Shown here piece after piece: positions 230 through 3,958 of a stretch of DNA of 64,000 nt. Positions within the stretch are counted from its first letter, which is position 1; every line of letters begins with the position of its first letter. The notes under the pieces were generated by a model. It was not told the DNA's origin, did no database searches, and worked only from the letters and a program-made list of their open reading frames with translations. Origin of the DNA: Bacteroidia bacterium (lineage in GTDB: Bacteria; Bacteroidota; Bacteroidia; J057); NCBI GenBank assembly GCA_030430575.1, contig JAUIKF010000012.1, forward strand, positions 1-64,000. The letters are read 5' to 3'. Both the position numbers and the translations under genes were made by a program.

Positions 230-1579
230 ATGTCAAGCTATCAAATTATCGGACTACTGGGATTGGCACTGGGGCTAGCAGCCTGCGGGGTCATGTTTTG
301 GGAATACTTCCGTCCCCTCAATCGCAAAAAACTCATGCAGCTAGGGGGACTCACGCTGTTAGGCGTATTGTTGGCCGATTTTGGGTTAATACGCGCAGTA
401 GGACTCCTCGCTGACTACGGCCAGCCTGGCCTTAGCGTGCTAGGAACTGAGGCTGCTGGTGGCCTTACTATCGCTACCCTAGCGACGATTATAGGTCTTA
501 TACTAGCATTTGCAGTACTCATGCGTGGAGGGAAGGAAGCCGAGCTTGCCCATCGAACCGCTAGCAGCCCTACCCTTCCGTGGACCCATCGGCTGGTGCT
601 GTTGATCCGCATATATATATGTATCCTCTTTGTCTTTTCGGGCTTTGTCAAAGCCAATGACTACATCGGCTTCAGCTATAAGCTAGAAGAATACTTCGTG
701 ATCTTTGGCGAGTACCTGCCTTTCATGGCAGGATTCTGGAAGTTCTGGGGAGGACTAGCAGAGCCGTTGGCCTGGTTTATCAGCGTATTTGAGATAGCAC
801 TGGCGGTAGCCATTTTGATCGGATGGCGTATGCGCCTCACCGCTTTGCTGACCCTGATCATGATGCTCTTCTTCACCTTCCTGACCGGCTTCTCCGCGGT
901 CACTGGAAAAGTCACAGACTGCGGCTGCTTCGGTGATGCCCTCAAACTGGCTCCCTGGGAGTCATTTACCAAAGACCTTATCTATATGGTCATGCTGGTA
1001 CCGTTATTTTTAATCCGAAAACACATCAAGCCAATTCCCAATAATAAGATCACGACAATCATCACAGCTGCCGTATTCCTCATCTCAGGTATATATAGCT
1101 GGTATTGTCACGAAAACCTCCCGCTAGTAGACTACCGAGCCTACAAAATAGGTACAGACCTCAATGTATGCACGACCCAGGCAGGGCCAGACGGCATTCC
1201 CAAATGTAAAGACTGGGAAGAGATCTACCGCTTGGGCGATAATTTCCCCATCCTCCAAGGAAAAACGCTGATGCTAGTCATGTACGATATGGAAAAAACA
1301 TCGGAAGAAGGCCTCAAAGGAACCGTAGAACTTACAAATTCCCTCACCGACACCACCATACAGGTCATCGCTATGACAGCAACAGGAAAGTCGCGTGTCG
1401 ATGAATTTATTGCTAAATTTAACCTCCCTTATAGCTTCTCCTTCCGTGATCAGACCATGCTCAAGACAATTGTCAGGTCGAATCCTGCTTATGTCTTGAT
1501 GAAAGATGGCGTTGTTTTGGGTAAATGGCATCATAATAATGCACCCTCAGTGGGGGAGATAGAAGGAATGATAAAATGA
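230..1579 (+). CDS. DoxX/MauE-type membrane protein, BT_3928 family
   Basis: Polytopic inner-membrane protein of 449 residues. Hydrophobic segments are visible near residues 5-25, 40-58, 78-99, 118-140, 180-200, 205-228, 245-262 and 278-298. The hallmark is the cysteine pair DCGCFGD at residues 230-236, as in DoxX/MauE-like redox membrane proteins. From about residue 310 the chain becomes soluble and ends in a strand-rich part (PAYVLMKDGVVLGKW) resembling a thioredoxin fold without CxxC. This arrangement is that of the Bacteroidetes BT_3928 family. The roughly 110-residue N-terminal part with three extra membrane segments precedes the DoxX core. A redox role in the membrane is inferred from the family; the substrate is unknown. 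Its last codons (ATG ATA AAA TGA) already form part of the octamer repeat that fills the next gap. Confidence 0.8.
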   Translation: MSSYQIIGLLGLALGLAACGVMFWEYFRPLNRKKLMQLGGLTLLGVLLADFGLIRAVGLLADYGQPGLSVLGTEAAGGLTIATLATIIGLILAFAVLMRGGKEAELAHRTASSPTLPWTHRLVLLIRIYICILFVFSGFVKANDYIGFSYKLEEYFVIFGEYLPFMAGFWKFWGGLAEPLAWFISVFEIALAVAILIGWRMRLTALLTLIMMLFFTFLTGFSAVTGKVTDCGCFGDALKLAPWESFTKDLIYMVMLVPLFLIRKHIKPIPNNKITTIITAAVFLISGIYSWYCHENLPLVDYRAYKIGTDLNVCTTQAGPDGIPKCKDWEEIYRLGDNFPILQGKTLMLVMYDMEKTSEEGLKGTVELTNSLTDTTIQVIAMTATGKSRVDEFIAKFNLPYSFSFRDQTMLKTIVRSNPAYVLMKDGVVLGKWHHNNAPSVGEIEGMIK

Positions 1580-1665: not shown

Positions 1666-2718
1666 ATGGCAATACTCGTAGGACGTTGGGACTGCTCCAC
1701 TTGTGGAAATAAGGCCATTTTAGGCCCCAAGACCCAATGTCCTAATTGTGGAGCGTCGCGTCCAGAAGATGTGCGGTTTTACCTGCCAGATGATGCTGAA
1801 GTGGTGACGATAGAGGAGCAGTTGAAAGAGGCGAAGGCCGGGGTGGACTGGGTATGTGGACATTGTAGCTCTCATAATAAGGCGCTTCAGCTTAGCTGCA
1901 ATAGTTGTGGGAATCCACGCGATGAGCTGAGCGAAGATGTCGATTTAGGAGAAAAAACCTATGAACTGCATGAAGTTCCTAAGGATGCGTTAATCCCGTA
2001 TGATCCGCCCCCTAGAAAGCGAAAGGCCAATCCAGCTACCAAGTGGCTCATCGCCCTTATTTTCCTAGTAGGTATATTTATCTTTTTCAGTCAACTCCCC
2101 AAAGACATAAACGTCACAGTTTCAGGTTTCAAATGGGAACGGACCGTGCAAATGGCGCATTATGAGCCTGTGCAAAGAGAAGAGTGGGAGTTGCCCCGTG
2201 ACGCGTATGACGTCTCAAGTTATCGGGCGATCCATCATTATGATCAGGTTTTTCGCGGGTATGAAACGCGCTATCGCAATGTCCGCGTCCAGGTAGGGGA
2301 AGAAAGGTATGTATGTGGCAAAAGGGATAAGGGGAATGGGTATTTTGAGGAAGTATATTGTACCCGGCCAATTTATGAGAAGCGTCGCGAATCGTATGAA
2401 GAGGCGGTGTATGACAAAGTTCCCGTCTATCGGGAGAAATACCGCTTTACTGTGATGGAGTGGGTAGAAAAGCGATCCTACCTCCTTCGATCTCAAGGTG
2501 CTGACCACCACCCTTTCTGGCCCAGCCAGACCTATCCCGATCCCGCCAACTGGCGCGAAGGGAAAAAAAATGCTACTTATATCGCAATCGTCACTGATCC
2601 CAAGGGCATAACTCACGAAGAATCCTTTTCTTTGCAGGATTGGGATCGGTTGGCTATCAATCAACCCCTGGAAGCGACTCAGTCGTGGCTCTTTGGTACG
2701 TATTTTGGCTTGAAGTGA
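1666..2718 (+). CDS. Membrane protein with two RanBP2-type zinc fingers
   Basis: 350 residues. Two zinc fingers sit at the N-terminus: W8, C10, C13, C25, C28, and W62, C64, C67, N71, C78, C81. The second fits the RanBP2-type pattern W-x-C-x2-C-x3-N-x6-C-x2-C exactly. A basic stretch (PRKRK, about 117-120) precedes one membrane helix at 127-142, so the fingers should be cytoplasmic and the 200-residue C-terminal part periplasmic. That part is rich in Tyr, Glu and Arg, has only two Cys, and matches no domain I recognise. RanBP2 fingers bind RNA or ubiquitin in eukaryotes; the bacterial ligand is unknown. It lies between the DoxX-type and arginase-like genes on the same strand. The stop codon TGA forms the start of a GAGACCGCTCGGGC unit. 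Confidence 0.7.
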   Translation: MAILVGRWDCSTCGNKAILGPKTQCPNCGASRPEDVRFYLPDDAEVVTIEEQLKEAKAGVDWVCGHCSSHNKALQLSCNSCGNPRDELSEDVDLGEKTYELHEVPKDALIPYDPPPRKRKANPATKWLIALIFLVGIFIFFSQLPKDINVTVSGFKWERTVQMAHYEPVQREEWELPRDAYDVSSYRAIHHYDQVFRGYETRYRNVRVQVGEERYVCGKRDKGNGYFEEVYCTRPIYEKRRESYEEAVYDKVPVYREKYRFTVMEWVEKRSYLLRSQGADHHPFWPSQTYPDPANWREGKKNATYIAIVTDPKGITHEESFSLQDWDRLAINQPLEATQSWLFGTYFGLK

Positions 2719-2806: not shown

Positions 2807-3958
2807 ATGGACTTATCTGTTTTTTTTGACCCGATAAATGACTCGCTCTTATCGTATTCGGCTCCTCTGATGGGAGATCGGATCGGGCAACAAGCCTTGA
2901 TGTCTCAGCAACACTTTGCTGCCTGGCAGGAAGCCGATCTTGTGATCATGGGAGTTCCGAGCCTGTCAAAGGCACAGGATATGGGCGATGCCATTCGCCA
3001 GCACCTATATCCGCTGTCGCTTGCGACAGACCGGTGTAAGGTCGTGGACCTTGGAGAGATGAAGGCAAAAGAAAGTGCAGAGGCGCAGGAAGATGCCCTG
3101 GCATATGTGCTGGAGCAACTGCTTCAAGCGGAGAAAACGGTTATTCTCTTGATGGAAGACCGAAGCATTACTTTTGCTCAGCATGCAGCCTATGAGCCGC
3201 TTTCAGCGCCGATTGACTATGTCCATATCGGCCCTCGACTGGATCTGTCAGACCCGGATATGGCCCCGCCCATACTGGCCTACAACCAGCGTATTTTTCG
3301 CCACGAACCCAACTACCTGTTTAACTATACCAACCTCGGGTATCAACGCTATTTTGTACTAGAAGAAGAGTTAAATAGCCTTCGGGACCTGAATTTCACC
3401 GCTGTCCGGTATGGCGTGTTACATGCTGATATTGGGGAGGCAGAGCCTTACCTGCGGGAAGCGAATCTCGCAAGCTTTGATTTGTCAGGCATTCGTCAAG
3501 CGGATTTTGGCGCTGGAATAGCCCCTTCGCCGGGCGGATTCTCCGCTACAGAGGCGTGTCAAATCGCCCGCTATGCAGGCCTGGGACGCCAATTGACGAC
3601 TTTTAGCTTAAATGGATTGCTCCCATCGGAAGACGTGCGGGGGCAAAGTGCCCATTTGGCAGCCATCATGATTTGGTATTTCATCGAAGGGTTTTCCCAG
3701 CGTGAAAAACATCAAGTAACAGGCGACCTCAAAAAACTCCGTCGCTACAATGTCCAACTAAGAGCCACAGTCTCTTCCATCAATTTCTTTGAACACCCCA
3801 ATTCTGCGCGGTGGTGGATGGAGGTTCCTTACCCAGATGAACTTGGCAAGGCCAAGCCCAAAACGCGACTCATTCCTTGCTCCAACCGCGATTATCAAAT
3901 CGCTCAAAACGACGAAATACCTGATCGCTGGTGGAAAACCTTTAATAAATTGGCCTAA
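2807..3958 (+). CDS. Arginase/formimidoylglutamase-fold protein lacking metal ligands
   Basis: 383 residues, ureohydrolase-like over most of its length, of the Bacteroidetes formimidoylglutamase-like group (NLGYQRYFV near residue 185 is typical). Active ureohydrolases bind two Mn ions through GGxH, DxHxD and SxDxDxxDP motifs. The corresponding stretches here read LLMEDRS, GPRLDLSDPD (about residues 142-151) and SFDLSGIRQADFG (about 223-235), so most ligands are missing. It is therefore probably not a classic arginase or formiminoglutamase. The gene starts at ATG 2807 after an AT-rich gap. The downstream gap holds a palindrome of GGTCTGTAGT words. A binding or regulatory role is possible; function unknown. 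Confidence 0.7.
   Translation: MDLSVFFDPINDSLLSYSAPLMGDRIGQQALMSQQHFAAWQEADLVIMGVPSLSKAQDMGDAIRQHLYPLSLATDRCKVVDLGEMKAKESAEAQEDALAYVLEQLLQAEKTVILLMEDRSITFAQHAAYEPLSAPIDYVHIGPRLDLSDPDMAPPILAYNQRIFRHEPNYLFNYTNLGYQRYFVLEEELNSLRDLNFTAVRYGVLHADIGEAEPYLREANLASFDLSGIRQADFGAGIAPSPGGFSATEACQIARYAGLGRQLTTFSLNGLLPSEDVRGQSAHLAAIMIWYFIEGFSQREKHQVTGDLKKLRRYNVQLRATVSSINFFEHPNSARWWMEVPYPDELGKAKPKTRLIPCSNRDYQIAQNDEIPDRWWKTFNKLA

Follow-up and report, generated by a model that had tools for sequence, protein, structure and literature searches.

A RanBP2-type zinc finger in an uncharacterised family of predicted single-pass membrane proteins from many bacterial phyla

Introduction

TcaA of staphylococci comprises a zinc ribbon, one membrane helix and outer domains. 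YdjG of Bacillus subtilis, encoded by the pspA-ydjGHI operon, is described as containing two zinc ribbons, an NTF2-like YpeB-related domain and a transmembrane segment (PMC11237479). Deletion of ydjG or ydjH is reported to abolish the membrane recruitment of the SPFH protein YdjI and of PspA (PMC8581546, PMC11237479), and two-hybrid data are described in which YdjH contacts YdjI and PspA and YdjG contacts YdjH (PMC8581546). ArnA of Sulfolobus acidocaldarius is described as carrying an N-terminal RanBP2-type finger, and is thus a prokaryotic counterpart in this respect of the protein reported here, from which it differs in being archaeal and in containing an FHA domain (PMC6509490).

The window, i.e. 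the whole stretch of 64 000 nucleotides of Bacteroidia DNA analysed here, contains a gene for a protein with two zinc fingers ahead of a predicted membrane segment. It differs from the usual proteins of the RanBP2 finger family (PF00641) in being bacterial and in bearing the finger on a predicted single-pass membrane protein. Compared by description, it resembles YdjG in its two zinc knuckles, membrane segment and further domain, and in the SPFH gene found as a neighbour at a few loci of its family. No published description of this family was found in searches of an open-access library. The family is bacterial and uncharacterised. Its general build (zinc knuckles, a single membrane helix and a further domain) is of a known kind, its outer domain is unusual, and a finger that is usually thought to be eukaryotic is a conserved part of this membrane-protein family across many phyla.

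Results and discussion

The gene and its surroundings

The features of the locus are collected in Table 1. The open reading frame is confirmed as a real gene encoding the finger-bearing, predicted membrane protein; the product can be aligned along its full length with seven relatives at 44–54% identity, and its single match in its own genome is itself. The neighbouring genes in the window encode a BT_3928-family protein, an arginase-family protein and an ABC ATPase. The gap to the upstream gene, for a BT_3928-family/DoxX-like membrane protein, is 86 nt, and that to the downstream arginase-family gene is 88 nt. No equivalog model reaches its cut-off for the arginase-family product, which may be a divergent ureohydrolase-like protein.

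Table 1
Coordinates of the features in and around the gene (positions in the window)
Feature	Position	Strand	Description
Upstream gene	230–1579		BT_3928 family NF045576, 272 bits (cut-off 250); MauE/DoxX domains
Whole gene	1666–2718	+	ATG start, 350 amino acids, predicted single-pass membrane protein
Finger 1, RanBP2-like, off pattern	1687–1749	+	Residues 8–28, C-x2-C-x11-C-x2-C
Finger 2, RanBP2-type	1834–1920	+	Residues 57–85; PF00641 score, fold match
Membrane segment	2044–2100	+	Residues 127–145, after PRKRKAN; model helix 128–142
Outer (periplasmic) domain	2101–2715	+	Residues 146–350, about 205 residues, predicted long beta strands
Hairpin tip	2314–2361	+	Cys217 and Cys232 around GNGYF (residues 223–227)
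Downstream gene	2807–3958		Arginase family PF00491, 33 bits (cut-off 22)

An inverted repeat with 32-nt arms, which are 84% complementary and 27 nt apart, occupies positions 1571–1661 of the window, where it takes in the tail of the upstream gene together with the AT-rich spacer ahead of the start codon. Scans for promoters and terminators gave hits at about the chance level (4 versus 2.8 and 1 versus 1.5, respectively). A phage or plasmid origin was rejected, as no tblastn match was found in phages or plasmids and no relative in IMG/VR. PADLOC gave no defence-system match for the window protein, and a DruE model was matched by two of eight family members (best E 0.00043).

The two zinc fingers

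Two fingers had originally been predicted, one of them with the full W-x-C-x2-C-x3-N-x6-C-x2-C pattern, and this is borne out: finger 2 shows the complete pattern at residues 62–81 and finger 1 lies off it. The window protein scores 29.1 bits against PF00641 (Zn_ribbon_RanBP; Pfam cut-off 27), the best stretch being that of finger 2. The pattern of finger 2 is present in 72 of the 76 aligned rows of the family, including the window. Trp62 and all four cysteines are invariant (76/76 rows, the window included), Asn71 is kept in 72/76 and the aspartate directly before the tryptophan in 66/76. The host genome contains no second PF00641 match above the cut-off. Within a sample of 296 genomes of the phylum, such matches occur in five (the host included), four of which fall by their coordinates within members of the window family, and another 14 give matches that stay short of it; the above-cut-off finger is thus, in this sample, almost confined to the window family.

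The finger region (residues 1–104) was modelled with AlphaFold2 from 70 sequences, without zinc, the best model having a mean pLDDT of 85.0 and the other four having values of 67.8–78.9. Using Foldseek, fingers of RanBP2, Nup153, ZRANB2, RBM5, HOIP and TAB2 were superimposed onto this model at 0.4–0.8 Å over 24–29 columns, and a single ZRANB2 NMR model at 1.5 Å over 28 columns. Because the domain is short, every E-value exceeded 0.001, and zinc ribbons that are unrelated (archaeal PolD and L40e) came ahead by E-value, at r.m.s.d.s of about 4 Å and more. The ZRANB2 match was assigned to finger 2, since its 44% identity over 25 columns fits only this finger. VIA-align placed the TAB2 NZF on residues 58–87 (Z 4.0, r.m.s.d. 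1.0, 30 residues); no row for the finger model reached Z 5, and L40e ribosomal zinc ribbons reached up to Z 3.8 (r.m.s.d. 4.5). Taken together, the pattern, the Pfam score and the sub-ångström superpositions show finger 2 to be a true RanBP2-type finger, its predicted fold agreeing with the pair of small beta hairpins about a single zinc that defines the class. A rubredoxin or zinc-ribbon fold instead, which would have spoken against the original prediction, was not predicted for this finger.

Finger 1 has one additional residue between its cysteine pairs and lacks the asparagine, so that the RanBP2 pattern is not matched. Its spacing of 2-11-2 is found in 71 of 73 rows and 2-10-2 in the other two, its cysteines are kept across the rows with one exception, and asparagine stands at the expected place in a single row (1/73). 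Finger 1 of two relatives (G342 and G134) matches PF00641 below the cut-off. Foldseek and VIA-align gave no match to finger 1 distinct from those to finger 2.

Membrane topology and the cysteine pair

A membrane segment, taken as a Kyte–Doolittle mean of 1.6 or more over 19 residues, lies between the fingers and the outer domain in 74 of the 76 rows; the exceptions are L075, which is truncated, and L033, where the mean reaches 1.31. Lysine and arginine are more numerous before this segment than after it in 55 of the 74 rows, fewer in 11 and equal in eight, and by the same criterion none of the 76 outer domains contains a membrane segment. Since the one membrane segment is preceded by a sequence rich in lysine and arginine, the fingers most likely lie inside the cell and the further domain outside, connected by one inner-membrane helix. 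The original prediction that the fingers face the cytoplasm is thus likely to be right.

Within the outer domain, 22 of 77 rows carry Cys217 as well as Cys232 and 55 lack the two, one of these 55 being truncated ahead of this region; in no row is there only one of the cysteines. The state of the pair changes six times on the tree of the family. As the two cysteines occur together or not at all, a periplasmic disulfide is suggested, which probably pins the GNGYF tip in the window lineage.

Distribution and descent of the family

Scanning GTDB contigs with a profile-derived pattern gave 76 loci, which were confirmed by tblastn. According to their NCBI labels, these come from seven named phyla, Bacteroidota, Bacillota, Acidobacteriota, Myxococcota, Gemmatimonadota, Chlorobiota and Planctomycetota, and also from three candidate phyla; five of the 70 rows used for the tree, the window among them, carry no phylum label. 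One record bears the name Burkholderiales in its title (L081), but it matches in part, sits on a contig of 5.9 kb and has neighbours in common with L073 and L084 of UBP9, and for this reason no member from Pseudomonadota was counted. The spread that the original prediction had proposed to examine is therefore wide yet patchy, and the family is not specific to Bacteroidota. Within the host's taxonomic family, nine of 13 genomes have the gene (the host included); the other nine genomes of its order lack it, and in the phylum sample it occurs in four of 296 genomes (again with the host included). Among 199 genomes of the phylum to which G361 belongs, the one full-length match was in G361; the 16 other matches in that phylum are partial and all lie within profile positions 4–149, which cover the fingers and the linker.

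A tree of the 70 rows, calculated by a quick method and with 22 of 67 inner branches weak, requires 11 label changes for ten phyla, where the minimum possible is nine and the mean after shuffling is 34.9. Because the tree largely follows the phyla, old vertical descent with many losses fits better than recent import, and the family is apparently an old and patchily kept bacterial one; as the scan was made with a pattern and leaned on metagenome bins, some transfers may also have taken place. The import hinted at by the earlier term 'eukaryotic-style' finds no support in this distribution, nor in the finger described for archaeal ArnA (PMC6509490). Two family copies are interrupted by stops (L028, 5945–7006, and L056, 5992–7167), through either real decay or assembly error.

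Residues of finger 2 compared with RNA-binding and ubiquitin-binding fingers

The original prediction had raised RNA or ubiquitin binding by the fingers. ZRANB2 is described as contacting RNA through W17, R19, R20, N14 and N24 (PMC6384913), which a phmmer alignment maps onto residues 72, 74, 75, 69 and 79 of the window protein. The stacking position, residue 72, is tryptophan, phenylalanine or tyrosine in none of the 76 rows. Residues 74 and 75 are both basic in none, with three basic rows for each position counted alone, and asparagine is found at the N14 equivalent in one row and at the N24 equivalent in five. These counts argue against a membrane-bound sensor that uses finger 2 to read single-stranded RNA, a reading which we consider very improbable, even though the RNA-bound ZRANB2 finger superposes at 0.4 Å over 25 columns with 44% identity and the window retains Asn79, the N24 equivalent. 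Two further points on the side of RNA reading are that the family mostly keeps the aspartate before the tryptophan, where D4 is reported to matter for affinity (the mapping between the two is uncertain), and that no simple recognition code is reported for this class of finger (PMC6384913).

The criterion described for ubiquitin-binding NZF fingers is a T-F/phi patch (PMC4386640), here mapped to residues 68, 69 and 80. Threonine followed by a hydrophobic residue at the first two positions occurs in none of the 76 rows and a hydrophobic third position in one, so that the complete patch is found in none. A membrane-bound reader of small beta-grasp proteins, ubiquitin-like ones among them, for which the superposition of the TAB2 NZF on finger 2 would speak, is accordingly the least credible of the readings considered. 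With the stacking aromatic and the complete patch both absent from all rows, RNA and ubiquitin functions are unsupported. The role of the window protein is probably to dock other proteins and not to read RNA or ubiquitin; for the fingers, a protein-docking or structural role would then be left.

The outer domain

The outside domain of some 200 residues that the original prediction had called unknown is matched by no Pfam family in the window protein itself, and no NCBIfam model comes near its cut-off for this protein. A full-length AlphaFold2 model from eight sequences has a mean pLDDT of 84.5 and a pTM of 0.43, so that the placement of the domains is uncertain. In this model, the strands of the outer domain comprise residues 146–173, 181–221, 226–278 and 296–310, with a pLDDT mostly of 90 or more; those between residues 181 and 278 are predicted to be very long and to carry the GNGYF tip between the two cysteines. 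The longest conserved stretch of the family, D-x-G-N-G-Y-F, lies in this domain; its conservation is inflated, since the loci beyond the nearest relatives were collected using that pattern, and in eight proteins collected without any pattern GNGYF is invariant.

In VIA-align, the outer domain was matched best by PDB entries 3q6c and 3rd4, both of which are DUF2500 (YhhM; PF10694) by sequence, at Z 5.3 (62 residues, r.m.s.d. 3.8) and Z 4.8 (76 residues, r.m.s.d. 5.7), values below 8 that may reflect just a common arrangement. The DUF2500 HMM weakly matches two of 68 outer domains (best E 0.00069); at E 1 it does not match the window protein, and it matches nothing in the host genome. In a profile–profile comparison, hhalign against a four-sequence alignment was not significant (P 0.23 for the whole and 0.047 for the tail), with a score of 13.4 compared with 16.2 for the best of 60 shuffled controls. 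The long hairpin of the window protein would be an insert relative to DUF2500. In a Pirellulaceae protein (L092, 1042–1821), whose genome also carries a member of the window family (L034), a zinc ribbon and membrane helices (assigned by eye) are combined with a DUF2500 domain that scores over its cut-off. As this protein joins the three elements, the resemblance to DUF2500 is plausible, and the window protein is not filed in that family.

DUF7489 (PF24315) is weakly matched by five of the 68 outer domains (best E 0.0049) and not by the window protein. Matches to pore-forming toxins (lysenin, aerolysin and others; Foldseek E 0.0092 and worse, TMq at most 0.15) were rejected as generic to long hairpins. 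A Pseudomonas phage protein, itself uncharacterised, was matched in BFVD (E 5.9e-4, probability 1.00, TMq 0.19).

The size of the outer domain bears on the reading that we rank second: an envelope protein acting outside, modelled on TcaA, in which the hairpin domain would bind a wall or envelope component and the fingers would merely fold or dimerise the tail. The outer domain is the larger part of the protein and holds its longest conserved stretch, and the TcaA model is weakly matched by three of 38 members (best E 0.00087). A homologue from Gemmatimonadota (L085, 1436–2410) keeps the outer domain without fingers as an apparent lipoprotein, with a signal peptide and the lipobox LPVAGC recognised by eye; the same bin also holds a finger-bearing copy (L033). 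However, the fingers are conserved like the tip, as seen in the tryptophan, the cysteines and Asn71 of finger 2, which is more than a mere stub would need, and the search pattern accounts for part of the conservation of GNGYF. We regard this reading as possible but doubtful.

Genomic neighbourhood and possible function

A Band_7_1/SPFH gene (PF13421) lies immediately upstream on the same strand at three of the 76 loci, 69 of which have more than 600 nt of upstream sequence. These three loci span two phyla, with gaps to the family gene of 77 nt (L014, Bacteroidota), 11 nt (L030, Chlorobiota) and 10 nt (L031, Chlorobiota). About 0.038 SPFH neighbours would be expected by chance, with a probability of 0.0007 for two or more lineages, an estimate that takes one gene in 4000 to be of the SPFH kind and counts two neighbours at each locus, and that is post hoc, as 61 neighbour clusters were inspected and L030 and L031 are near relatives. 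PF13421 is present in all 13 genomes of the host's family, and this co-occurrence is uninformative because all four of the 13 that are without the family gene also have the SPFH gene. In the host genome, the SPFH gene is on another contig (C109) and the family gene is not beside it. In four relatives (L147, L148, L149 and L151), the SPFH gene follows an HflX-like gene and a gene for a DUF2480-like protein of 167–172 amino acids, both named by eye; in the genome with locus L014 (G007) the zinc-finger gene sits behind this trio, which is absent from the host genome (L146).

The neighbourhood check that had originally been proposed therefore gave the recurrence of SPFH on the one hand, and, on the other, individually scanned neighbours that are mostly unrelated to one another. 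Neighbour genes in loci of high GC content were called with codon scoring. No pspA or ydjH gene was found among the neighbours scanned, and neither TPM nor PspA is among the 25 commonest Pfam families of 58 of the 74 close same-strand neighbours, in which 82 less common families also occur. Besides SPFH, the clusters among the 61 that recur across phyla are ABC ATPases, response-regulator/kinase-like proteins and clusters 8 and 19; the ABC ATPase of the window was identified by Pfam, the other ABC ATPases and the regulator/kinase-like proteins were named by eye, and no search gave an identity for clusters 8 and 19.

The reading that we place first, ahead of the envelope protein and with RNA or ubiquitin reading ranked low, is that of a single-pass inner-membrane adaptor working like B. 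subtilis YdjG, which we offer tentatively. The fingers inside the cell would be a protein-docking module, the outer domain would sense or hold an envelope component, and the adaptor would help to bring SPFH/PspA-type proteins to the membrane, as YdjG does, with the Band_7_1/SPFH protein as its candidate partner. It is favoured by the fold and pattern of finger 2, the topology, with which the paired cysteines and the lipoprotein-like homologue L085 agree, the absence of RNA-binding and ubiquitin-binding residues and the SPFH neighbours in two phyla, and disfavoured by the rarity of this neighbour (3/76 loci) and by the location of the SPFH gene on another contig here. The two-hybrid data also count against it, because it is YdjH and not YdjG that is described as contacting YdjI and PspA (PMC8581546). 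A YdjG-type operon (pspA, ydjH and an SPFH gene) is absent at the window locus, and the Foldseek and VIA-align results for the outer domain contain no NTF2-like or YpeB-related resemblance.

Should the adaptor reading hold, a sensor component would be added to membrane-surveillance systems outside the Bacillus type, and SPFH is a testable candidate partner of the window protein. A bolder version, which we consider unlikely, is that the RanBP2 finger would form the cytoplasmic docking end of an envelope sensor with a rigid, disulfide-pinned beta-hairpin probe outside (tip GNGYF), coupled to SPFH/PspA-like scaffolds, in an undescribed ancient family; on this view, the finger would be a protein-docking fold of old prokaryotic stock, which eukaryotes put to use later for Ran, RNA and ubiquitin. 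At the locus from a Faecalibacterium bin (L078, 3616–4356), the next downstream gene encodes a DUF4230 protein (E 4.7e-33) and is followed by one for an EcsC-like protein (E 0.004, a weak match).
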